Made by a program: the position numbers and the translations under genes. Of a DNA stretch of 62,404 nt, positions 9,926 through 51,408 are shown piece by piece (positions within the stretch are counted from its first letter, which is position 1; every line of letters starts with the position of its first letter). Where the stretch lies: NCBI GenBank assembly GCA_015228815.1, contig JADGCV010000017.1, positions 1-62,404 on the forward strand. The letters are read 5' to 3'. Source of the DNA: Magnetococcales bacterium. GTDB lineage: Bacteria > Pseudomonadota > Magnetococcia > Magnetococcales > UBA8363. The notes below the pieces were generated by a model. The model ran no database searches, had not been told where the DNA came from, and was given only the letters and a program-made list of their open reading frames with translations.

Positions 9926-10192
9926 ATGACAATCGGTGCAGACATGGAACAACGAATCAGCCTGCGTGAAGCCAACCAGCATTTAGCCCGTTACATCAAA
10001 GCGGTGGAAGCTGGCGAGGAGGTCATCATCACCCGGCGCGGACAGCCCATCGCTCGTCTGATGCCCTTGCGCCGTGAACGGGTGTTGAGCGAAGAACAGC
10101 AGGCGGCCCGCGAACGCACCCGGATGCGGATGCAACAGGGCTATGCCCTGGGAGGAAAACCGGTTTCCCGGAATGAACTCCATGAACGGTGA
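9926..10192 (+). CDS. Phd/YefM-type antitoxin
   Basis: 88 residues. The N-terminal Phd fold is typical: ISLREANQHLARYIKAVEAGEEVIITRRGQPIARLMP. The C-terminal part is charged and should bind the toxin. GGAGG lies about 9 nt before ATG 9926. It overlaps the downstream PIN-domain gene, the usual antitoxin-toxin order. The protein is predicted to repress its own operon through the palindrome just upstream. Confidence 0.9.
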   Translation: MTIGADMEQRISLREANQHLARYIKAVEAGEEVIITRRGQPIARLMPLRRERVLSEEQQAARERTRMRMQQGYALGGKPVSRNELHER

Positions 10193-10616
10193 ACGGTACA
10201 CCCTCGACACCAACATCCTTCTCTATGCTCTGGATCGCGAGGCAGACAAAAAACACGCCATTGCCTCATCGTTGCTGAATCAGGCAGTCACGGAGAACTG
10301 CGTGTTGATGCTCCAATCTCTGGGAGAATTTTTCCGCGCGGCAACCGCCAAAGGCAAAATGCCCGTTGCGGAAGCCTCCGATCAGGTGCGGGACTGGCTG
10401 ACGTTATTCCAGGTGCAATCCGCCGGACCATCCACGATTACCAAGGCACTCCGTGCAGTGCAAAACCATGGCATTTCTTTCTGGGACGCCATGCTGTGGG
10501 CCTGCGCCAAAGAAGCCGGTTGCGGGATCGTGATCAGTGAGAATTTCCAGCATGGGCGCGTGCTGGAGGGTGTCAGATTTCACAACCCTTTTCTAGGGAA
10601 TATTGACATTCAATAG
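10173..10616 (+). CDS. PIN-domain toxin (VapC-like)
   Basis: About 147 residues with a PIN ribonuclease fold. Acidic residues are visible in TLDTN, SLGEF and FWDAM, plus SENF near the end. It is a predicted Mg-dependent RNase that cuts tRNA or mRNA when the antitoxin is lost. The start overlaps the antitoxin by 20 nt; ATG 10182 is an alternative. A degraded terminator-like repeat fragment (CCCCAGACCC plus T run, about 10,650) follows. Confidence 0.85.
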   Translation: MNSMNGERYTLDTNILLYALDREADKKHAIASSLLNQAVTENCVLMLQSLGEFFRAATAKGKMPVAEASDQVRDWLTLFQVQSAGPSTITKALRAVQNHGISFWDAMLWACAKEAGCGIVISENFQHGRVLEGVRFHNPFLGNIDIQ

Positions 10617-23046: not shown

Positions 23047-23322
23047 CTATCGCTTCAGATTCCGGTAGAAGTTCTCATGACTTCCCAAGGCCAACAGTTT
23101 GAGCGCCCCATTCTCCTCTTCGTATTCATAAGCAAGCAACGTCAACTGATTGGTCATTTTGAATTTGAAAACCCGAACTCCAGCCAAATCGCCCACCTTG
23201 GCATCACCCATGGCTGGATCGGCGGCAATGGCACGCACAGCTTCATCCAAGTCGCATTTCTGGTTCACATGCAACCGTTTGACCGCATTCTTGAAAAGAC
23301 GGCTTTGAAGAATACGCATCAC
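23047..23322 (-). CDS. RelE/ParE-superfamily toxin
   Basis: 91 residues with the compact RelE fold: a first helix (MRILQSRLFKNAVKRLHVN), a basic middle (AGVRVFKFKM), hydrophobic strands (TLLAYEYEEE) and a C-terminal LGSHENFYRNLKR with the late Tyr/Arg typical of RelE-like RNases. It overlaps the antitoxin gene upstream by 4 nt. Predicted mRNA interferase. Confidence 0.8.
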   Translation of the reverse strand: MMRILQSRLFKNAVKRLHVNQKCDLDEAVRAIAADPAMGDAKVGDLAGVRVFKFKMTNQLTLLAYEYEEENGALKLLALGSHENFYRNLKR

Positions 23323-23528
23323 TCGAATTTATATTCCTCAAACTCCTGCAATTCCCGGGCAAGAAGGATGTCCTTGATCATGGAATAGGAGAGATCGGGA
23401 TTATCTTCGACGATTTTGCCAATCCGGGACCAATATTCGATCTGCCTGGGCAGCGATCGATGAAAGATCTGTCCGTAACGTTTGGCCTCGGCAACCAATT
23501 CATCGGAAATTCTGACATTCACTGGCAT
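23319..23528 (-). CDS. ParD-like antitoxin
   Basis: 69 residues. Begins with a ribbon-helix-helix-like stretch (PVNVRISDELVAEAKRYGQIFHRSLPRQIEYWSRIGKIVEDNPDL), a pattern shared by TA antitoxins of the ParD-like family. ATG 23528 has AAGGAGT upstream. It precedes the RelE-like toxin and probably represses the pair. Confidence 0.8.
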   Translation of the reverse strand: MPVNVRISDELVAEAKRYGQIFHRSLPRQIEYWSRIGKIVEDNPDLSYSMIKDILLARELQEFEEYKFE

Positions 23529-23737
23529 ATTGGACTCCTTGTTTCGATTCGCAACAATAATATGCCAAAATGGACCATTCAGGAACCTGAAACCCATCGG
23601 TCACAAAATAACTGCCCCCCCAGGACCATAAATATGGCTGATCATCTAATAAAAGAACAAATTTGAATGAAGACATTCACCAATGTTACACATGGATATC
23701 ATGATCGATTCAACTTTCGGGCCATGGTAACCTCAAG

Positions 23738-29857: not shown

Positions 29858-30155
29858 ACAACGATTCGCGGCCCAGATCGGCGAAACCCTGTGGAACGCC
29901 TATCCCGGCTATCGCTGGGCCGTCGCCATCACCGGAGGACTGGCACGCATCCGCAATCTTGATCTTTCAGGACGATGGGGATTCGACATTCCCCTGTCGG
30001 CACTCGACCCGGATCCCCTTTTCAAACAGGTCGTCCACGCCGGCGGCGAAATCCTGGAACGCTACCGGCTGGCCCGGGGAAGGGCCGATGGGGATCGCCT
30101 CGACGAACTGCCCCGTTTCATCACCGGAGAAGCCATGGGAGATGTACACGCATGA
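29835..30155 (+). CDS. Hypothetical phage protein
   Basis: 106 residues from ATG 29835, with AAGGAG upstream inside the previous gene. Its stop overlaps the portal gene start (ATGA). The fold seems mixed alpha/beta, with a conserved-looking GYRWAVAIT and RWGFDIPLSAL. The place between terminase and portal suggests a small structural or packaging factor. Confidence 0.5.
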   Translation: MIKPETPEQRFAAQIGETLWNAYPGYRWAVAITGGLARIRNLDLSGRWGFDIPLSALDPDPLFKQVVHAGGEILERYRLARGRADGDRLDELPRFITGEAMGDVHA

Positions 30156-32206
30156 ACGAAACCCCAACCCGCCCGCAAAACCAGGACCCCTGGGAAACGG
30201 AACCATCGATGGATTCTCCGGACCACGAAACGATCGACGACGCCACCTGGCGCAAACTTTCCCAGGAAGCCTACGAAGAAAGCCGGGAATGGATGGAACG
30301 CAATCTGCGCCGGCAATGGCGACGCAACCTGGCCAATTTTCGTTCGCACCATCCCGAAGGATCGAAATATCATTCGGAAATGTACAAAAGGCGCTCGACC
30401 CTGTTTCGCCCCAAGACGCGCAACGCCATCCGCCGCAACGAGGCCCACGCCGCCGCCGCCTTTTTCCAGAACGCCGAACTGGTCAATCTGGAACCGCGCG
30501 ACGATTCCGACCCGCGACAACTGGCGAGCGCCGAAGTATTCAAGGAAATTCTCCAGCATCGTCTGGAAAAGGATATTCCCTGGTTTCAGACGGTCATCGG
30601 CGCCTTTCAGGATGCCATGGTCCATGGAATCTGCGTTTCCAAGCAGACCTGGGACTATGTCGAAGAACTCCGCGAGGTCGAAAAGGTCCTCACCGATCCG
30701 ATGACCGGACTGGCGATTCACACGCCCCAGGGTGCGCCGATGACCGAACGCTACCTGGAACGGGTCCCGATCGTTGACCGTCCGCGAATCGAACTGCTGG
30801 AACCGGAAAACATCCGCCTCGATCCGGCATCGGACTGGCGCGATCCCATCCATTCCTCGCCGTTCGTCATCCACATCATCCCCATGCGCATCGACGACAT
30901 CAAGAAACGAATGGGTACACAGTGGCGGTCACTCGACGAAAAAGAACTGCTGGCAGCCGTGGCGGAAACGGAATCCTTCAACGACAGCATCCAACAGCAA
31001 CGCCAGGAACGGGTCGCCACAAAACAACGGTCCGGCGCCGATGGGTTTGCCATCGTCAACGTTCATGAAAATTTTATCCGTCACGCCGACCACGATTGGG
31101 TCTTTTTCACGCTCGGCGCCAAGACCCTCCTGAGCGATCCGGTCCCCGTGACCGAGGTCTATCCCCATGGCCGCCCGTTCGTGATGGGTACCTGCATCAT
31201 CGAGGCCCATCGTCCCTACCCCTCGGGATTGGTGGAACTGGCCCAGGACATCCAATCGGCGATCAACGAGGTGCAGAATCAAAGATTCGACAATGTGCAA
31301 CTGGTTCTGAACAAACGCTACTTCGCCCGGCGCGGCAGCGGCGTCGATCTGAAAAGCCTGACCCGCAACATTCCCGGATCGGTCACGATGATGACCAACC
31401 CCGAATCGGATGTCGTCGTCCATCACACCCCCGACATCACCGCCAGCGCCTACGAGGAACAACAGTTGCTCAACGCCGACTTTGATTCGGCCATCGGCAC
31501 CTTCGACCAGGGGAGCGTCAACGTCAACCGGCAACTCAACGAAACCGTCGGCGGGATGAACATCCTGTCCGCCGACGCCAACCTGACGACCGAATACCTG
31601 TTGCGGGTATTTGTCGAAACCTGGGCGGAACCGGTGCTGCGACAACTGGTCCAACTGGAACAACGCTTCGAGACCGACACATTCATCCTCGCCATGGCGG
31701 GACGGCGTTCCCCCCTGGTGCAACGTTTTGGCTTCCATCCCATCATCGACCGCCTGCTGGAACAGGAATTGACCGTCCGCATCAACGTCGGCGTCGGCGC
31801 CACCAACGTCCACAACCGTCTGGAACGATTCCTCCTCGGGGCGCGTACCGTCTCCGATCTTCTGGGGATGGCCCCCGATGCCCGACAGTTGATCGCCGAA
31901 GTGTTCGGTCTTCTGGGATACAAGGATGGCATCCGCTTCTATCCCCAACTCAACACCCCCCCCTCCGAACCCCTGCCCGATCCCCTGGTGGAGGTGGAAC
32001 AGGACAAGGTCAACGTCCAACGGGAAGCCCTCCATCTGCAACGCCAGATCGAAGCGGCCCGACTGCAAACCCGACGCGAGGAAAAAATGCGCACCGACGC
32101 CCTGAAGAAAACAGAACTGGCCACCAAAGCCCACCTCGAACGCCTGCGCATCCAGGCCGCCCTCGCCACGGGAACGACCCAGGGGTTGCGTCGAAACCTG
32201 GGATGA
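30152..32206 (+). CDS. Phage portal protein (podoviral type)
   Basis: 684 residues. Long portal typical of P22/N4-like podoviruses, forming the dodecameric DNA gate in the capsid vertex. Visible family features: helix-rich N-terminus (about 25-130), the central region with DRPRIELLEPENIRLDP, the block QSAINEVQNQRFDNVQL, and the long C-terminal helix (about 600-680) with charged heptads. ATG 30152 overlaps the previous stop. Confidence 0.88.
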   Translation: MNETPTRPQNQDPWETEPSMDSPDHETIDDATWRKLSQEAYEESREWMERNLRRQWRRNLANFRSHHPEGSKYHSEMYKRRSTLFRPKTRNAIRRNEAHAAAAFFQNAELVNLEPRDDSDPRQLASAEVFKEILQHRLEKDIPWFQTVIGAFQDAMVHGICVSKQTWDYVEELREVEKVLTDPMTGLAIHTPQGAPMTERYLERVPIVDRPRIELLEPENIRLDPASDWRDPIHSSPFVIHIIPMRIDDIKKRMGTQWRSLDEKELLAAVAETESFNDSIQQQRQERVATKQRSGADGFAIVNVHENFIRHADHDWVFFTLGAKTLLSDPVPVTEVYPHGRPFVMGTCIIEAHRPYPSGLVELAQDIQSAINEVQNQRFDNVQLVLNKRYFARRGSGVDLKSLTRNIPGSVTMMTNPESDVVVHHTPDITASAYEEQQLLNADFDSAIGTFDQGSVNVNRQLNETVGGMNILSADANLTTEYLLRVFVETWAEPVLRQLVQLEQRFETDTFILAMAGRRSPLVQRFGFHPIIDRLLEQELTVRINVGVGATNVHNRLERFLLGARTVSDLLGMAPDARQLIAEVFGLLGYKDGIRFYPQLNTPPSEPLPDPLVEVEQDKVNVQREALHLQRQIEAARLQTRREEKMRTDALKKTELATKAHLERLRIQAALATGTTQGLRRNLG

Positions 32207-32360: not shown

Positions 32361-32600
32361 GTGTTCATGCGTCGGTTGCGTGCAGTGTTGTCTTTGATCA
32401 AGGATTCCTTTGATGTCCGCCAATTAAAATCCCGCCCCCGTATCGATCCCTTGAAACAAGCGCAGGAAATGGAACGCCGTCTGGTAGCGACCCTGTCTCG
32501 GGGCAACCTGAGCCTTCAATTTGGTCGCTATACGACAGCCAAGGATATTGAGGACCTCAGGAAATCGTTGCGGGATCATCAGTTTTCCCTTCGCGGATGA
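32361..32600 (+). CDS. Module A small protein (partner of tail-anchored protein)
   Basis: About 79 residues from GTG 32361 (AGGAG 8 nt upstream); ATG 32367 is an alternative. Basic N-terminal half; C-terminal motif NLSLQFGRYTTAKDIEDLRKSL. A similar motif closes the small protein of module B at 48,785 (QSRGYVQSGKEISAEEMDRRTM). The last codons overlap the ATG of the larger partner (ATGA), so translation should be coupled. It is not a structural gene in the podoviral order and is likely a moron. Confidence 0.6.
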   Translation: MFMRRLRAVLSLIKDSFDVRQLKSRPRIDPLKQAQEMERRLVATLSRGNLSLQFGRYTTAKDIEDLRKSLRDHQFSLRG

Positions 32601-33220
32601 TTGACCAGACCATGGACGAAGGACGAAATCCGGAAGACCTGCTGAACACCATTTCGGAACTGTTTCGTAACGCGGAAATAGAAATCAAGTTGGCCGAACA
32701 AATGAGCGGGAATATCATCATTCCCGCCATCAACGAACTCCGGTATGCCGGCAATCATCTTCTCAAAGGGCTTCTGGCATCCTCGCCCAAGGAACAGCGC
32801 GAACAGTATTTCCGTGCCCTACGTCACTGTCAACGGGCCCATTATGATGCCGTTGAAGCGGTACTGCTTTATCTTCTGGACAAATTCAGAACGTTTCAGA
32901 ATGACTACGAAGAAGTGTCCATCCCCGCGGTCTGGCCAGACTACGCCAAGCATCTGTCACGTTTCCATGAGGCGCACAGCCTGCTCAAGTCCGTCGTCAA
33001 AAACCCGGAAGATATTGATGACCTGAAGGACAATCGCGAGAAACTCCTGGGTCCCACCAAGGAAGCTTGCAACAAACTGGCCCCTATCGTCGCATTATCG
33101 GACAGTGTCCGTATCGAATTGAACAAACAGATCGACACCAAACGGACTTCCGATTTGTATGCACGGTGGACAATTGCACTCGCCTTGATTTCCATTCTTG
33201 TGACGTTACTCGCACGGTAG
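32597..33220 (+). CDS. Module A helical protein with C-terminal membrane anchor
   Basis: 207 residues, mostly alpha-helical, with one hydrophobic segment at the extreme C-terminus (about 188-206, WTIALALISILVTLLA), so a tail-anchored inner-membrane protein with a cytoplasmic body. The block INELRYAGNHLLKG...ALRHCQRAHYDAVEAVLL aligns with ANEMFSCLHHIARG...AYESHIKRATLDSYKIAI of the module B protein. Function unknown; superinfection exclusion or abortive infection is a reasonable guess from setting and topology. Confidence 0.6.
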   Translation: MIDQTMDEGRNPEDLLNTISELFRNAEIEIKLAEQMSGNIIIPAINELRYAGNHLLKGLLASSPKEQREQYFRALRHCQRAHYDAVEAVLLYLLDKFRTFQNDYEEVSIPAVWPDYAKHLSRFHEAHSLLKSVVKNPEDIDDLKDNREKLLGPTKEACNKLAPIVALSDSVRIELNKQIDTKRTSDLYARWTIALALISILVTLLAR

Positions 33221-33273
33221 CGACGCACAGTTTCTTCGTAAGCAAATCAATCAATTTTAGTCAGCATTCTCGA

Positions 33274-33306
33274 CAGCCGGACGCAACCCATGCGCCCGGC
33301 TGTTTT
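33274..33306 (+). terminator. Intrinsic terminator closing module A
   Basis: CAGCCGG-a-CGCA / TGCG-c-CCGGCTG stem with one mismatch, a 5-nt loop, and TTTT (33,303-33,306) followed by CGTTTT. It ends the module before the next structural gene. Confidence 0.7.
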
Positions 33307-40631: not shown

Positions 40632-40681
40632 GACTCCAAATCATCCATTTTGTGACCGGCGATCCACACCAAGGAATCCCA

Positions 40682-42016
40682 ATGCTCCTGCGCTTTTCAG
40701 TCACAAACCTGTTCTGCTTCGCCGACGAGGCGGAGTTGAACCTGGTGGCGACCAAGGATAAAAATCATCCCGAACATCTGTGCCCCGCCGACAAATTCAA
40801 CGCCTTGCGGATTGCGGCGTTGTATGGCGCCAATGCCCACGGCAAATCACGGCTTGTCCAGGCGATGCAATGCGCCAAGACCATCATCACCAAGGGAACC
40901 ACCGAACCTGGTCAGGCCATCCCCGTGACTCCCTTTCGCCTGGATGTTGACCTGCGACAAAAACCAACCCGGTTCGAATTTGTTTTTTCAACAAAAGAAA
41001 CCATATATACCTACGGTTTCCAATGCGACGAAAAACAAATCTTTGAAGAATGGCTTTTTTCAAAACCCGCGAACCGACACGAAGTCAAATTGTTCGAACG
41101 CCGGGTCGATGGACAGGGGAATAGCGAATTCAACATTGGCAGGACCTTGCAACGCGGTAATACAAAGGGTCGGAGTTTCCTTAAATTTCTGACCCAGAGC
41201 GTCCGGGGAAACCAGTTGTTCCTCACAAGGGCAATCAACGATAATCTGGATTATCTATCCCCGGTCCATGACTGGTTCAATCATTCATTGAATATTTGGG
41301 AGGCTGGTGCGCCCATTCTTCCGGTCGCACTTCTTGCGTTGGAAAATGAACGCTTTCGAAATTTTGTCGGCGAGTCGATGAAGTCTTTCGATACGGGCAT
41401 CAATGGTATTCATACGGAAGAAAGATCTGGAAAGCCATCACAAAAATTAGATTTTCTTCTACACACTTTCGAGTTCGGGAAAGATGTTGATCAGGAAGAA
41501 ATAATACTCGAAGACAGTTCCGATCATGGGGGCTTGCTGCATTATTTTTCGAAGGACAAAATTCGATCGATAAGAATGCAAACACTCCATGAGGTCCCTG
41601 GTGACGATCCCGTGTTTTTTAAATTGAGTGATGAATCTGCCGGAACACGCCGTCTGATTCAATTGCTTCCCCTGCTGTTTGCAGAAGAAGCGATGGAAAA
41701 CGTTTATGTCATCGACGAGTTGGACCGCACCCTCCACCCCAGCCTTTCCCGTGCATTCATTGAGCATTTTCTCAAGATCATCGGATGCGACAGGAATCAG
41801 CTAATCTTCACCACGCATGAAAGCAATCTTCTTGATCTTGACTTATTGCGCCGCGATGAGATATGGTTTGTCGAGAAAGATGCCAAGGGAAGATCACAAC
41901 TCTATCCCTTGACCAGTTTTAAAGCCCGACCGGACATCAATATTGCCCGGGGTTACCTCCAGGGTCGGTTTGGCGCCATCCCTTTCATCGGTGACCCTTC
42001 CGCCCTGGGTTGGTAG
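40682..42016 (+). CDS. RloA/AbiLi-like AAA ATPase
   Basis: 444 residues. AAA_15/21-type ABC ATPase related to OLD-family proteins. Walker A GANAHGKS (about 49-56), Walker B VYVIDELD (about 341), and the H-loop TTHESN at about 380. Directly followed by an RloB-like gene, the partner seen in RloAB and AbiL defence pairs. ATP-dependent sensor of phage infection is the inferred role. It has AT-richer codon use than the phage structural genes. Confidence 0.85.
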   Translation: MLLRFSVTNLFCFADEAELNLVATKDKNHPEHLCPADKFNALRIAALYGANAHGKSRLVQAMQCAKTIITKGTTEPGQAIPVTPFRLDVDLRQKPTRFEFVFSTKETIYTYGFQCDEKQIFEEWLFSKPANRHEVKLFERRVDGQGNSEFNIGRTLQRGNTKGRSFLKFLTQSVRGNQLFLTRAINDNLDYLSPVHDWFNHSLNIWEAGAPILPVALLALENERFRNFVGESMKSFDTGINGIHTEERSGKPSQKLDFLLHTFEFGKDVDQEEIILEDSSDHGGLLHYFSKDKIRSIRMQTLHEVPGDDPVFFKLSDESAGTRRLIQLLPLLFAEEAMENVYVIDELDRTLHPSLSRAFIEHFLKIIGCDRNQLIFTTHESNLLDLDLLRRDEIWFVEKDAKGRSQLYPLTSFKARPDINIARGYLQGRFGAIPFIGDPSALGW

Positions 42017-42038
42017 ACACACAAGGGATCGCTTTTTT

Positions 42039-42689
42039 GTGCCCAAATCACTGACATCAAGAAAAAGATTAAAGGGTCGGACCGGGTCGAGCACACGGGA
42101 TTCACGACTCTTTGTCATTGCAACGGAAGGAAGTGAAACGGAACCATTGTATTTTAATTGTTTCAAGGAAAAATTTACAAATGGAAACAGAAAAATAAAG
42201 ATTGCCATTCTTGGAGCCGGTGGCAAGCAGAGGTCTTCACCAAAACAGATACTTGGAAGAATCGATACCTACATCCAGAAGAACGACATAAAGAAAGATG
42301 ATGAATTCTGGCTGGTACTGGATGCCGAGAGCAGAGGCGGAAACGATCTGGACAGTATTGCCACGGAAGCGAAGAGGAAAAAATATCGTCTTGCCATAAG
42401 CAATCCCAGTTTCGAGATCTGGCTGTTATGCCATCGTCAACGCCCACCCGGAGGACCGGTCGAACAACGCCATCTCGAAGACTCGTTGAGCAAAGCCCTT
42501 GGAAAATCCTATGAAAAGGGAAAAATAACGTGCGACGATTACATGAACGCAGTTGATAAGGCCATCGCCATAGCCAAAAAATCAGATCTTTGCCCCGACG
42601 CTGCCTGGCCCAAATCCACGGGCACCCATGTTTATCGAGTCATCGAGTCCATCAAGGCCTTCATCAACGCAACCACCGCATCCATCTGA
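42039..42689 (+). CDS. RloB/AbiLii-like TOPRIM-type protein
   Basis: 216 residues from GTG 42039 (AAGGGA upstream). The RloB signature is clear: VIATEGSETEPLYF at the N-terminus, KDDEFWLVLDAE, and ISNPSFEIWLL; these acidic residues make a TOPRIM-like metal site. Predicted effector nuclease of the RloAB/AbiL pair, starting 22 nt after the ATPase stop. DefenseFinder's AbiL model uses the same two domains. Confidence 0.85.
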   Translation: MPKSLTSRKRLKGRTGSSTRDSRLFVIATEGSETEPLYFNCFKEKFTNGNRKIKIAILGAGGKQRSSPKQILGRIDTYIQKNDIKKDDEFWLVLDAESRGGNDLDSIATEAKRKKYRLAISNPSFEIWLLCHRQRPPGGPVEQRHLEDSLSKALGKSYEKGKITCDDYMNAVDKAIAIAKKSDLCPDAAWPKSTGTHVYRVIESIKAFINATTASI

Positions 42690-42808
42690 TCGGACCGCCT
42701 GATTAACTCCATGCGCACGAGGTACCAGATTTATTATTTCTGGAAAAGGAACCATGCAATTATCATTATCAATCGTCAATCAACCTATTGCCTATTTGGT
42801 GCTCAAGC

Positions 42809-43324
42809 ATGAACGGAAGACCAGAAATACCAACTGAAATAAAACGTAAAGTTCTTGTCGAAGCTGGGCATCGGTGCGCAATTCCGACTTGTCGGCATAT
42901 CGATGTAGATGTTCACCATATCGTGCCTTGGGAAAAATGCCAGAAGCATGAATATGAGAATCTGATTGCCCTCTGCCCAAATTGCCACCGTCGAGTACAT
43001 AAGAATGAGATTGACAGAAAATCATTGGCCATTTACAAAAATAATCTCAGGAAAGCGCACGATAAATACTCGCAATTCGAAATTGACTTTCTTTACGAGA
43101 CGTACTTAATCAGAGACAATAAAAACACTGGCATACAGTTTCCACCATACTTAATTTTACTGATTAAAAGGCTTCTTGAATCTGGTTTTCTGTCAAGGAC
43201 TGTGACTCAAGGTGGTGTTTACCTGATGGAAATGAAGTCAAGCCCAGACATATACAGAATCACCAACATAGGAATAGACTTCATAGAATCATTTTCTAAA
43301 GACAATGAAAAAAATTTACCTTGA
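42809..43324 (+). CDS. HNH endonuclease
   Basis: 171 residues. An HNH nuclease fold (about 15-75) with zinc-binding Cys pairs (CAIPTCR and CPNCHRR) and catalytic DVHHIVPW / NLIALCPNCHRRVH. The C-terminal half (about 85-165) is helical with an unknown, possibly winged-helix, domain. It is AT-rich and sits right after RloB. It may be a third defence component or a stand-alone mobile nuclease. Confidence 0.8.
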   Translation: MNGRPEIPTEIKRKVLVEAGHRCAIPTCRHIDVDVHHIVPWEKCQKHEYENLIALCPNCHRRVHKNEIDRKSLAIYKNNLRKAHDKYSQFEIDFLYETYLIRDNKNTGIQFPPYLILLIKRLLESGFLSRTVTQGGVYLMEMKSSPDIYRITNIGIDFIESFSKDNEKNLP

Positions 43325-47007: not shown

Positions 47008-47154
47008 ATGCCCTATTACGGCATCATCTCCTCCCTGCCCGACATCCCTGCGGCAACATTCACCCTGGTCGGCGACGCCATTCCCATCGAGGGCAGTCCC
47101 GCGGGGATTGTCGGATGTTATTCGGCGGAAACCCGATGGAGTTCGCAACTTTAA
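47008..47154 (+). CDS. 48-residue phage protein
   Basis: ATG 47008 (AAGGAAT upstream), 48 residues with a hydrophobic, beta-type composition (MPYYGIISSLPDIPAATFTLVG). It sits between tail genes and may be a small accessory tail protein. Confidence 0.35.
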   Translation: MPYYGIISSLPDIPAATFTLVGDAIPIEGSPAGIVGCYSAETRWSSQL

Positions 47155-47171
47155 TTCCAGGAGCTTTCACC

Positions 47172-48605
47172 ATGCCCCTCTTCACCGTCACACAACTGGA
47201 CCAGTTCGGCATCATCAGCGACAAACCCGCCCACACCCTCCCGCCGAACGCCTTCTCTTCGGGCATCAACGTCAAGTTCACCGGAGGGGCCGCCCGCAAG
47301 GTGCAAGGATACAAAGCGGTCCTGGGCACCCTCGGTACCGCCCCGAATTTTCTGCGCACCATGTACGATCAACTCTGTTATTGCGGTACCGCCGCAGTCT
47401 TCACCGTCAAGGACGGCACCCATCACGAAGTGACCCGTACCGCGACCGGCGCCGACATGGTCTACGACGGATCCATGACCGACTATGATGCCACCAAACC
47501 CTGGTGGACCCTGGGCACGGGTTGGTCCATCAACACCGGAACCGACAAGGCCCAGTGCAACGGCTCGCAAACCGGCGCCAGCGCCCTGTCGCAGAATGTC
47601 AACATCAAGGAAGGACGGTCCTATACGGTATCGTTCACCATTTCCGGCTATTCCGCCGGCACCCTGACCCCCAAGGTGGGGGGAATCGCCGGAACCGCCC
47701 GCAACGCCAACGGAACCTTCACCGAAACCATCTCCGCCACCTCGATCACCAATCCCCTGCTCACCCTCGAAGCCAACGCCGACTTCGTCGGTGATGTCAC
47801 CGCCATTGGCTGCACCCAAACCCAGAGCGCCTACAACGCCGAACCCAACCTGGGATGGAACGGCGATGCCCTCGGCGGGGTCGGCTATCTCAACAACGGC
47901 ATCGATGCCCCGCAAATGTGGAATCCCCTGTCCCACACCACCCGCCTGGCCAATCTTGCCAACTGGCCTGCGGGCATGACCATTCGCAGCCTGCGGTTTT
48001 TCAAGTCGTTCCTCATCGGTATTTTTCCCACCAAGGGGGGAATCGCCTTTCCCCAGGTCATCCGCTGGAGCCATCCCACCGAGCCGGGGCAGGTCCCTGA
48101 AACCTGGGATGTGGGCGATGCCACCAGACTGGCCGGAGAAACGGTCATCGACGAAACAGGATCGGCCCTGGTCGAAGGAATGCCGCTGCGCGACCAGTTC
48201 ATCGCCTACAAGGATGACCAGATCTGGTCCCTGACCTATGTCGGCCCCCCCTATGTCTGGAAAGTCGCCCCCGTGGTCAAATCGGTGGGACTCCTCGCCG
48301 CCAACTGCGTCGCCATGGTCGAGGGACAACATTATTGCATGAGCCGCGACGACATCTACATGTTCGACGGCCACAACGCCCAAAGCCTCCTCACCGGACG
48401 CAACCGCGCCTGGCTCGAACAACAAATCGACCCCGATAACGGCCAACGCGCCTTCGTCAGCGTCAACCGCAGCGAACGCGAGGTCTGGTTCTGCTTCCCC
48501 GAACGCGCCTCCTCCTGGTGCTCGCTCGCCCTCACCTACAACTACGCCCACAACACCTGGGGCATCCGTGACCTGCCCAACGTGTCGTCGATGTCGGAAG
48601 TGTGA
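47172..48605 (+). CDS. Tail stabilisation protein, N-terminal part, with inserted beta domain
   Basis: 477 residues. It resembles podoviral tail stabilisation proteins (P22 gp10-like family): the start GIISDKPAHTLPPNAFSSGINVKFTGGAARKVQGYKAV, then GLAAPNCVAMVEGQHYCMSRDDIYMFDGHNAQ and FVSVNRSEREVWFCFPE...TYNYAHNTWGIRDLPNVSS. Residues about 100-220 are an inserted beta domain also found in the adaptor at 44,104. The protein stops after RDLPNV, where relatives continue with another domain; that domain is now at 51,503. Module B lies between the two pieces. Confidence 0.7.
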   Translation: MPLFTVTQLDQFGIISDKPAHTLPPNAFSSGINVKFTGGAARKVQGYKAVLGTLGTAPNFLRTMYDQLCYCGTAAVFTVKDGTHHEVTRTATGADMVYDGSMTDYDATKPWWTLGTGWSINTGTDKAQCNGSQTGASALSQNVNIKEGRSYTVSFTISGYSAGTLTPKVGGIAGTARNANGTFTETISATSITNPLLTLEANADFVGDVTAIGCTQTQSAYNAEPNLGWNGDALGGVGYLNNGIDAPQMWNPLSHTTRLANLANWPAGMTIRSLRFFKSFLIGIFPTKGGIAFPQVIRWSHPTEPGQVPETWDVGDATRLAGETVIDETGSALVEGMPLRDQFIAYKDDQIWSLTYVGPPYVWKVAPVVKSVGLLAANCVAMVEGQHYCMSRDDIYMFDGHNAQSLLTGRNRAWLEQQIDPDNGQRAFVSVNRSEREVWFCFPERASSWCSLALTYNYAHNTWGIRDLPNVSSMSEV

Positions 48606-48688: not shown

Positions 48689-48717
48689 TTGACGCGAACA
48701 TGATCCGCCTGTAGGAT
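48689..48717 (+). promoter_or_regulatory. Promoter of module B
   Basis: TTGACG (48,689-48,694), 17-nt spacer, TAGGAT (48,712-48,717). It lies after the tail gene stop and directly before four 11-bp iterons. A good sigma-70 match; the start site would fall in the first iterons. Confidence 0.55.
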
Positions 48718-48721
48718 TTTG

Positions 48722-48765
48722 CTAAATCGTATCTAAATCGTATCTAAATCGTGTCTAAATCGTTT
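48722..48765 (+). repeat. Four tandem 11-bp iterons upstream of module B
   Basis: Units CTAAATCGTAT, CTAAATCGTAT, CTAAATCGTGT and CTAAATCGTTT, directly after the -10 box. The place suggests an operator array for a regulator of the module; the period matches roughly one helix turn. Confidence 0.75.
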
Positions 48766-48784: not shown

Positions 48785-49024
48785 ATGCCTTCATCCTCCA
48801 CAAAAATCGGTTTCTTTTCCGGAAACGTTTCCGAAAACGGGCAGGAAACAAGGTATCGTGACGGTCCGATCATCAGCCGGTCCATGATTCAACGGTTTCT
48901 CCAAACGCATTTTGAGAAAGACCAACCCGATCTTTTCCAAAGCAGAGGGTATGTTCAAAGCGGCAAGGAAATCAGTGCGGAAGAAATGGATCGCCGCACC
49001 ATGGACATCCTTGATCAATGGTAG
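48785..49024 (+). CDS. Module B small protein
   Basis: 79 residues from ATG 48785 (GAGGGG about 10 nt upstream). Ends with FQSRGYVQSGKEISAEEMDRRTMDILDQW, the same motif as the module A small protein. Its stop overlaps the ATG of the next gene (49018), as in module A. Likely partner or antitoxin-like regulator of the tail-anchored protein; the function is unknown. Confidence 0.6.
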   Translation: MPSSSTKIGFFSGNVSENGQETRYRDGPIISRSMIQRFLQTHFEKDQPDLFQSRGYVQSGKEISAEEMDRRTMDILDQW

Positions 49025-49752
49025 ATCAGGATTCCCGCCGTACCCACATCATCTCCCGGCTTCAAACTCCGGTCGTCCAGGAAGCTCTGGCCGATCTGGT
49101 CGATGATTATTGGGATCGGTTTCAGGTCGTTTTCCGTATCGCCACCGCAGAAAAAAATGGGGTTCGTCCCGCAAATGTTGCCAATGAAATGTTTTCCTGC
49201 CTGCATCACATTGCACGTGGGTTGACCTGTGGCACCACAGCAGACGATTCCGTCGCCGAAATTCGCAAAGCCTACGAATCCCATATCAAGCGCGCCACCC
49301 TGGATTCCTACAAAATCGCCATCAACAGCATCCTTGAGGAAGACGAGGTTCTCGCGGGCCTTCTGGATTATATCCTTCTGGCCGACGAAGTGGTTGCCGA
49401 CTTCAAGGACAAGGTCGAAAACATCAAAAACATTCATCGGCTCAAACAGGATTGCAAGACAGCCTATGTCAAGGCCAAGGAATTCGAAGCTGCGGCCCGA
49501 TGGTCCGAAGCGATCAGGACGTACCACGACACCCTGGATATTGCAAAGGATCTCAGAAAATCACTGCAAACACTCCAGGAAGATCCTATCACCATCGCAT
49601 TCCTGGCGCGTGAGGGAAGGCGACGTCAAGAACGCACTGAAGACAGGAAGCACGATTTTCGCAAGGGTATGATCATCGCCATTCTCGCATCCGCCATCAC
49701 AGCCGTCTCCACCCTGCTGATTCGCATTTATCTGCCCCAGTATTTGCCCTGA
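49018..49752 (+). CDS. Module B helical protein with C-terminal membrane anchor
   Basis: 244 residues, helical. Block ANEMFSCLHHIARGL...EIRKAYESHIKRATLDSYKIAIN (about 57-105) aligns with the module A protein. One hydrophobic segment near the C-terminus (about 218-240, GMIIAILASAITAVSTLLIRIYL), preceded by a basic stretch (REGRRRQERTEDRKHDFRKG). Predicted tail-anchored inner-membrane protein. It lies inside the split tail operon. Confidence 0.6.
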   Translation: MVDQDSRRTHIISRLQTPVVQEALADLVDDYWDRFQVVFRIATAEKNGVRPANVANEMFSCLHHIARGLTCGTTADDSVAEIRKAYESHIKRATLDSYKIAINSILEEDEVLAGLLDYILLADEVVADFKDKVENIKNIHRLKQDCKTAYVKAKEFEAAARWSEAIRTYHDTLDIAKDLRKSLQTLQEDPITIAFLAREGRRRQERTEDRKHDFRKGMIIAILASAITAVSTLLIRIYLPQYLP

Positions 49753-49896: not shown

Positions 49897-51408
49897 TTGG
49901 GAGCCATTGACTTCACCGTTGCCGCCTGGGGTCAGGCGGTCGATGTGGCGGGACCGGGAGGTTGCCTGTGCGGCGGATGCGCCGTGGCGGTCGATGGGGA
50001 AGGCAATCTTTATGTCTCCAGAGTGGTTCAGGGGGGGGCCATCCATGTCGCCCAATCCACCGATCGGGGGGCCTCGTGGAATGATGTCCCGGTGGTTGCC
50101 GGAGGGGTGGAATTCTATCGCCATGCCTCGGCGCTCCTCGTCGATGCCGCAGGAACAGTCCATCTGTTCTACGTCGATGCCGACCATGCCCCCCGGCATG
50201 CCCGCTCGTTCGACGAAGGGGACACCTGGTCGATCCAGTCTCCCGCCCCGACCCTGGGTCCCTGTTCCCGTCAAATTGATGCCGTCACCGACCGCGCCGC
50301 CATCCGGTTATACCTCCTGCTGCGTGACGATGACATGGGTACCCTTTTTCTTGTTCGTTCCCCCGATGGCGGGTCCACCTGGGCCACGCCGGTGCAGGTG
50401 GCAACCCCCCTGCCCCATCTTGGCTGGGCCGTCCATCTGCGATTGGCCATCGACGGCAGGGGAACCCTCCATATCCTGGCGGAGGCGATCATCGCCGATC
50501 AGCGGCAAACCTTCCTGACCCACTCCCGCGATGACGGCGCCACCTGGGACCCCTGGGATCAATCCTGGAATCCCGGACAGGCGGTCGCGGCCAGTCTGAT
50601 CGCCTCGGGCCATGGCCATCTGGTCATCGCCTGCGTCAACGGCCAAACCCTCACTGCCCTGCTTTCGAACAATGGCGGCAAAACATGGCAATCCCGCACC
50701 ATCCTGGCCGCCCCCTTCGTGTTCGACCTCTGGTCCCCCCCGGGATTGCTCAAGGACCCCAACGGCAATCTTCATCTGTTCGTCTATCTGGGCGAACTGC
50801 ACACCATCCGCCACATCCATTCCCGCGACAATGGCAACACCTGGAGCCAAGGGGAAGACATCTTCACCGCCACCCTTTGGAAAACACCCGCCGATATTCA
50901 ACCCCTCTGGGCCAATGGTCGAATTGCCGTCGTCGCATCCCTCGGAATCAGCGCCACGGTGGGCAAGGTGCGTTTTATCAGTGGCGATACCCTGGTCATT
51001 CACCATGCCCCGCGGCTCAACCGAATCGAACCCGACCACATCGCCGCCGGCGTCGGCAACCATTTCTACCTGATGGATGCCGGTGAAACAGGCAATGGGA
51101 CCTCCATCGCTTCAGTGCTGGAACGGACCGGCCTGACCCCCGAAGGACCCGAAGAAATCATCACCGTCCTTGAAGTCTGGCCCGACTGCTCGATGAATAC
51201 CGAAGTCACCCTGCAAATGGGTACCCAGATGACCCTCGACGAGGCGGTCACCTGGCATCCACCCGTCGTCCTCAACCCCTTTACCGCCGATCATGCCCCG
51301 GTTCGGGTAACCGGACGGTATATCGCCATCCGTTTCATCATCGACCTCGACTGCGCCTGGGCCATGCATGGATATACGTTGGTCTATGAAAAGTGCGGTC
51401 GCCACTGA
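49897..51408 (+). CDS. Sialidase-type beta-propeller fused to tail C-terminal domain
   Basis: 503 residues from a TTG start at 49897 (GGAGG 6 nt upstream). Six Asp-box repeats (S-x-D-x-G-x-T-W type) at about residues 54, 104, 155, 210, 257 and 309, spaced about 50, mark a BNR/sialidase beta-propeller. The C-terminal 115 residues (FYLMDAGETGNGTSIASVLERTG..., VTGRYIAIRFIIDLDC) match the separate protein at 51,503. Probably a tail receptor-binding or glycan-binding spike. No catalytic sialidase residues were checked. Confidence 0.7.
   Translation: MGAIDFTVAAWGQAVDVAGPGGCLCGGCAVAVDGEGNLYVSRVVQGGAIHVAQSTDRGASWNDVPVVAGGVEFYRHASALLVDAAGTVHLFYVDADHAPRHARSFDEGDTWSIQSPAPTLGPCSRQIDAVTDRAAIRLYLLLRDDDMGTLFLVRSPDGGSTWATPVQVATPLPHLGWAVHLRLAIDGRGTLHILAEAIIADQRQTFLTHSRDDGATWDPWDQSWNPGQAVAASLIASGHGHLVIACVNGQTLTALLSNNGGKTWQSRTILAAPFVFDLWSPPGLLKDPNGNLHLFVYLGELHTIRHIHSRDNGNTWSQGEDIFTATLWKTPADIQPLWANGRIAVVASLGISATVGKVRFISGDTLVIHHAPRLNRIEPDHIAAGVGNHFYLMDAGETGNGTSIASVLERTGLTPEGPEEIITVLEVWPDCSMNTEVTLQMGTQMTLDEAVTWHPPVVLNPFTADHAPVRVTGRYIAIRFIIDLDCAWAMHGYTLVYEKCGRH

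Follow-up and report, generated by a model that had tools for sequence, protein, structure and literature searches.

What do two small gene pairs of the same build do among the structural genes of a phage carried by a magnetotactic bacterium? The window analysed here (the whole stretch of 62,404 nucleotides, from contig 17 of the Magnetococcales genome G000) contains a podovirus-like structural gene cluster of ~27 kb flanked by host genes, with a terminase at 28.1 kb, a portal at 30.2 kb, a major head protein at 34.8 kb and structural genes up to ~54 kb. A related portal gene is present in seven of the eight genomes of the genus, at 76-83% identity, and the prophages compared adjoin differing host genes. 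These differing flanks indicate that the structural cluster is mobile, and for the same reason it was no longer considered a gene transfer agent. The cluster is a prophage resident in the bacterial chromosome. Outside it, two host gene pairs resembling toxin-antitoxin (TA) modules were noticed by eye at 23047-23597 and 9926-10616, near rpsB and lpxA.

Two gene pairs of the same build within the prophage

Module A (32,361-33,220) lies between the portal gene and p121, and module B (48,785-49,752) between stN and stC, two genes that correspond to the N-terminal and the C-terminal portion, respectively, of a single virion protein family (Table 1). Each module consists of two genes in less than 1 kb, with the small gene first and an overlap of 4 nt (ATGA) between A1 and A2 and of 7 nt between B1 and B2. 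An earlier note on this DNA had described two modules of equal build set within podoviral structural genes, the larger protein of each carrying a C-terminal membrane helix. The ORF positions and gene overlaps agree with that description, terminase, portal, major head and virion structural proteins were recognised in the surrounding cluster, and one C-terminal membrane helix was found in A2 and one in B2.

Table 1. Coordinates of the modules, their borders and associated features; positions are those of the window unless a locus is named.
Feature	Position	Strand	Remarks
A1, small partner, 77-79 aa	32361..32600	+	start GTG 32361 or ATG 32367; cationic amphipathic N-terminus; C-terminal motif SRGNLSLQFGRYTTAKDIEDLRKSL
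A2, 207-aa tail-anchored helical protein	32597..33220	+	NELRYAGxH and HCxRAxYD signatures; AlphaFold pLDDT 94
B1, small partner, 79 aa	48785..49024	+	C-terminal motif SRGYVQSGKEISAEEMDRRTMDILDQW
B2, 244-aa tail-anchored helical protein	49018..49752	+	A2 homologue by profile tests; HIKRATLD signature; Phe replaces Arg of A2 motif
Portal gene	30152..32206	+	upstream border of cargo site 1
p121, small conserved phage gene	33336..33701	+	downstream border of cargo site 1
stN, virion structural protein	47133..48605	+	N-terminal part of phrog_3287; upstream border of module B site
stC, phage structural gene	49897..51408	+	C-terminal part matches phrog_3287; downstream border of module B site
AbiLi-like AAA ATPase	40652..42016	+	PADLOC E 2e-84; cargo of site 2
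AbiLii-like partner	42015..42689	+	PADLOC E 2e-19; true start uncertain
Hairpin terminator	33272..33304	+	-22.2 kcal/mol, z -5.4; precedes p121
Promoter-like TTGACG-17-TAGGAT	48689..48717	+	sigma-70-like, 9/12; before module B
3.8 tandem copies of 11-bp CTAAATCGTAT	48722..48763	+	between promoter-like site and B1; operator-like
Site 1 alternative cargo	G004 L121:8273-10289; G005 L122:2904-3925; G002 L123:7724-8745; G001 L119:17355-17858		PADLOC 2TM/1TM models

Relationship between the modules

When A2 and B2 were compared by BLASTP, no significant similarity was detected (E 0.34). In profile-profile comparison with hhalign, E was 1.7e-4 when 10+5 sequences were used, and enlarging the profiles to 34+5 sequences brought it to 5.3e-7, at a probability of 92%. 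The aligned segments are NELRYAGxHLLxxL...AxxHCxRAxYDA of A2 and NEMFSCLHHIARGL...SHIKRATLDS of B2. An HMM built from 34 type-A proteins, run on the whole genome, picked out B2 (E 2.3e-5); it also matched a B2 relative in another genome (E 9.5e-6). Judged by these profile tests, A2 and B2 are homologous, as the earlier note had proposed. Its companion claim, that the small proteins end in a related motif, did not hold up as homology of A1 and B1: hhalign revealed no significant similarity between them (E 0.029, probability 1.7%), and their motif score was equalled by 1.6-5% of unrelated 80-residue pieces.

Further pairs of the A/B build, assigned to types C (L084 and L085) and D (L089), were found in Magnetococcales, one of them in a closed 4.7-Mb genome. 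The A model found the type-C large proteins (7e-17 and 7e-15) and the B model that of type D (7e-9); with the A1 motif, the small proteins of type C score higher than any of 4151 unrelated pieces. The residues kept in all four types are a single His in helix 2 and H-x2-R-x3-D in helix 3. Modules A and B are best explained as two diverged members of one uncharacterised two-gene cassette family.

Predicted structure and searches for known families

The AlphaFold model of A2 shows five helices (mean pLDDT 94), the long final one continuing into the membrane segment, and the model of B2 is similar in kind (pLDDT 85). A C-terminal hydrophobic or membrane segment is present in 40 of the 42 large family members, and nearly all of them carry a net positive charge before it, from which a cytoplasmic location of the helical bundle is predicted. 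The small proteins of type A begin with a cationic amphipathic stretch (mean z of the moment against shuffles 1.46, 28 sequences; N-terminus net positive in 26 of the 28) and end in the motif RGNxxLQxGxYxTxxD. No clear A1-like amphipathic N-terminus was seen in B1.

Scans of the four proteins and 34 A2 relatives against Pfam, PHROG, PADLOC and NCBIfam returned only scattered weak matches, many of them coiled-coil-like. No PADLOC match was convincing for A1, A2, B1 or B2, and none of the four had a PHROG match. PDB sequence searches gave no match to the family, fold searches gave helical-bundle and BAR-like structures, all at E >0.1 and none counted as a fold match, and no known effector or sensor domain was detected. 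A pair of the A1-A2 type was not described in the literature found by paper searches.

The published HEPN signature comprises Rx4-6H and a second motif, Ex3[KR] (PMC3710099), and type A has residues of this kind: R49-x4-H54 (R in 34/34, H in 32/34) and E27-x3-K31 (31/34 each), the R-x4-H being retained in types C and D. The large protein might thus be a divergent HEPN RNase anchored in the membrane, perhaps a permuted one, which the small protein inhibits or activates. We regard this as improbable, as all five B2 members have Phe in place of the Arg of NELRYAG and nonetheless keep H..HxxRxxxD, and the residue after the Arg is Tyr in 34/34 proteins rather than N, D or H. Moreover, E-x3-K is common in helices generally, and HEPN was found neither among the 50 fold matches listed per model, where a permuted fold could be missed, nor among the listed PDB sequence matches. 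The HEPN-based Tha/Ith prophage defence (PMC11087260) resembles the present family in its prophage-borne anti-phage function, a candidate function here, and in the R-x4-H-like motif of type A. It differs in that the present family permits no HEPN assignment, is membrane anchored, has another partner and lacks the arginine in type B.

Variable cargo sites in related prophages

Comparison within the genus revealed three variable sites in an otherwise conserved prophage backbone. At site 1, between portal and p121, module A is present in the window and in G003, whereas genes for 2TM-like plus 1TM-like proteins occupy the site in G002, G004 and G005, and a 1TM-like gene alone in G001. These alternatives matched the PADLOC models 2TM-TIR (E 5e-7 to 6e-5) and 1TM-TIR (E 2e-9 to 5e-7), and no TIR gene was recognised among them; in G004 the site additionally holds a DUF433-DUF5615 pair. 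Site 2 carries AbiL in three of the five prophages (the window, G002 and G004) and only short gaps in G001 and G005. An HNH-type endonuclease-like ORF with weak PADLOC matches follows AbiL at 42788-43324 and is possibly more cargo. At site 3, between stN and stC, module B is present in the window, G002, G004 and G005, and G001 is empty, with a gap of ~72 bp.

All three therefore behave as cargo sites, and at sites 1 and 3 absence or replacement was found at a conserved position in close relatives, as expected of morons. The earlier reading of the modules as morons is well supported, as the prophages share their backbone and differ exactly at the A and B sites.

The position of the modules inside the structural cluster, in the same orientation, and the overlap of their membrane-protein genes, as in lysis cassettes, would also suit genes of phage biology proper, that is, a holin/antiholin cassette or a virion assembly factor. 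Such a role is highly improbable: B is missing from G001, A is replaced by unrelated cassettes in four prophages, the PHROG scans gave no match, most relatives lie outside phages, and in L128 the pair and the late genes are on opposite strands. Both the lysis-cassette and the structural readings were rejected, as closely related prophages can do without the modules and most copies are found outside phages.

Variable cargo beside the portal gene is known from the prophage defence hotspots of P2-like phages and P4-like satellites, where phage AC1, for instance, carries transmembrane proteins together with a TIR protein (PMC9122126). Site 1 likewise adjoins the portal, and its alternative contents match the 2TM and 1TM models, but here the phage is a podovirus-like one of Magnetococcales, A1-A2 is not among the PADLOC-DB systems and site 1 has no recognised TIR gene. 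Like the 2TM-1TM-TIR genes found at this site, the modules are pairs of small genes for membrane proteins, whereas A1/A2 and B1/B2 match none of the models of that system, A1/A2 are unrelated to it in sequence, A2 has one C-terminal membrane helix, and a TIR partner is missing. AbiL (AbiLi/AbiLii) is cargo of the same prophages as modules A and B, but it is ATPase-based and unrelated to A1/A2 or B1/B2.

Distribution and genomic neighbourhoods

In a single-protein search, type A was found in 11 of the 48 genomes of the order Magnetococcales, and with the other types included the family model matched in 16 of the 48. In a species-representative collection, type A occurs at 38 loci, from Magnetococcales, other Alpha- and Gammaproteobacteria including Pseudomonas, Desulfobulbaceae, Chlorobi, Planctomycetes, Acidobacteria, Verrucomicrobia including Akkermansia, Kiritimatiellaeota and others; it is also present on three IMG/VR contigs. 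Nothing was confirmed by direct searches of INPHARED phage records and IMG/VR with A2 and B2; relatives surfaced solely through whole-genome searches and family alignments, and the small-protein alignment is too variable for scanning viral contigs. Searches with the B family gave no extension beyond Magnetococcales.

The motif-bearing small gene lies immediately upstream of the large gene at 33 of the 37 type-A loci of a non-redundant set, counted by eye; at the others it is one gene away (one locus), doubtful (two) or absent (one, L052). The expectation of many pairs outside this strain was thus borne out in numerous phyla. An A1-like gene without an adjacent A2 was found in four genomes, and at one Akkermansia locus (L060) three genes follow one another, namely an RGN-motif small gene, a gene for a 221-aa protein and an A2 relative. 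In a tree of 34 large proteins, a single origin of the Magnetococcales copies was neither shown nor rejected (AU p 0.34), and horizontal transfer between phyla is therefore not formally proven. Three A2 relatives (L012 in G034, L013 in G008 and L015 in G029) are interrupted by stops or truncated, which suggests decay of some chromosomal copies, with sequencing errors as another possibility.

Besides sites 1 and 2, several loci lie in defence hotspots or islands. One copy is flanked by XhoI restriction-modification on one side and Cas10/Cmr2 of a type III-B CRISPR system on the other (L041), another adjoins AbiEii (8e-93) and a PifA-like protein (1e-29; L045), and a third an N6 DNA methylase (L046); an A1-like gene adjoins an AAA ATPase that resembles AbiLi (L106). 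Other copies are associated with phages: between a Bro-N antirepressor and a lambda-family portal in a prophage (L038/L072), between a lambda-type terminase and portal (L128), with a phage integrase nearby (L073), or in surroundings that by eye look prophage-like and include SSB (L056). Many copies are solitary among housekeeping genes, with no recognisable defence neighbours, and the association with defence genes is drawn from several clear individual cases. The lambda-type terminase of L128 (5723-8839, 1039 aa) shows LAGLIDADG-like similarity (E 6e-6) and probably contains an intein or is fused to a homing endonuclease.

Two small overlapping genes, patchily distributed and with solitary chromosomal copies, could also form a TA (addiction) module, in which a membrane-toxic partner and its neutraliser would spread by stabilising the carrier replicon and any anti-phage effect would be secondary. 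The overlapping two-gene operon with a small partner is a type II TA layout, plasmid-like genes were seen by eye on some contigs (L070), and the DUF433-DUF5615 pair at site 1 of G004 resembles a PIN-type TA. This explanation is nevertheless rather unlikely, given that no known toxin or antitoxin domain was detected, that the small protein has no DNA-binding domain for autoregulation, and that the four A1-like genes with no adjacent A2 are hard to reconcile with A1 as sole toxin. Two relatives used as queries against plasmids gave no matches. The TA and defence readings overlap and are not fully exclusive.

Proposed function and mechanism

As cargo-site behaviour is combined with matches to defence models at sites 1 and 2, defence or exclusion is the best reading for module A, and it is extended to module B because of homology and position. 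We estimate a probability of about 0.5 that modules A and B are prophage cargo protecting the lysogen through anti-phage defence or superinfection exclusion, their most likely role. Of the earlier suggestion in this direction, the part that stands is association with 2TM/1TM, AbiL, R-M, CRISPR-Cmr, AbiEii and PifA-like neighbours, whereas a match to a listed defence family did not emerge. The numerous solitary copies, together with the lack of an effector or sensor domain and of a fold match, count against defence. The same solitary copies amid housekeeping genes would fit host-fitness cargo with no relation to phages, for instance a membrane-stress or envelope function, but the repeated capture at prophage sites whose remaining cargo resembles anti-phage systems makes this quite improbable.

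For the defence or exclusion reading, a mechanism can be proposed whose computed elements are the pairing, the tail anchor with its positive-inside flank, the amphipathic N-terminus of A1, the predicted fold, the cargo-site behaviour and the defence neighbours; docking, trigger, effector step and the anti-phage activity itself are what we infer. The larger protein would sit in the inner membrane through its C-terminal helix, with the helical bundle in the cytoplasm, and the conserved C-terminal segment of the small protein, RGN-x-x-LQ-x-G-x-Y-x-T-x-x-D, may dock on the bundle's conserved polar face (H...HxxRxxxD). This complex would be disturbed by infection, after which damage to the membrane or a block to the incoming phage could come from the small protein's amphipathic N-terminus, from the large protein's membrane helix, or from both. 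As B1 has no clear N-terminus of this kind, the membrane-attack step may not be general.

A wider and more tentative proposal is that the tail-anchored H...HxxRxxxD bundle and the RGN-LQ-G-Y-T-D peptide constitute a cross-phylum immune family of at least four subtypes, acting as an infection-sensing membrane complex with no known enzymatic effector domain. The family itself is unnamed, and the type of setting, prophage cargo sites, is already known. The defence cargo of prophages ranks among the main sources of new bacterial immune systems, and the search for these has so far concentrated on hosts that are well sampled and on proteins whose domains can be recognised. Here, no database entry was found for the family (Pfam, NCBIfam, PHROGs, PADLOC, PDB), and yet it spans many phyla, at defence-like sites. 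With two genes in so short a segment, several natural variants are clonable for phage-panel tests. If active, the family would represent an additional immune mechanism, with two components and tethered to the membrane, and provide defence catalogues with a search signature, NELRYAGxH / HxxRAxxD downstream of RGNxxLQxGxYxTxxD.

Transcription signals around the modules

The hairpin that follows module A, which the earlier note had taken for the module's own terminator, has a counterpart before p121 in all six related prophages compared, whatever their cargo. Being independent of the cargo, it belongs to the phage backbone and not to module A. Upstream of module A in the window, no convincing promoter match was found. 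The tandem CTAAATCGTAT repeats before module B were not found upstream of the other B modules. Matches to TTGAC-17-TA precede all four B modules and the A module of G003; they are weak singly (p 0.06-0.11) and reach a combined p of 0.0075, with members that are non-independent.
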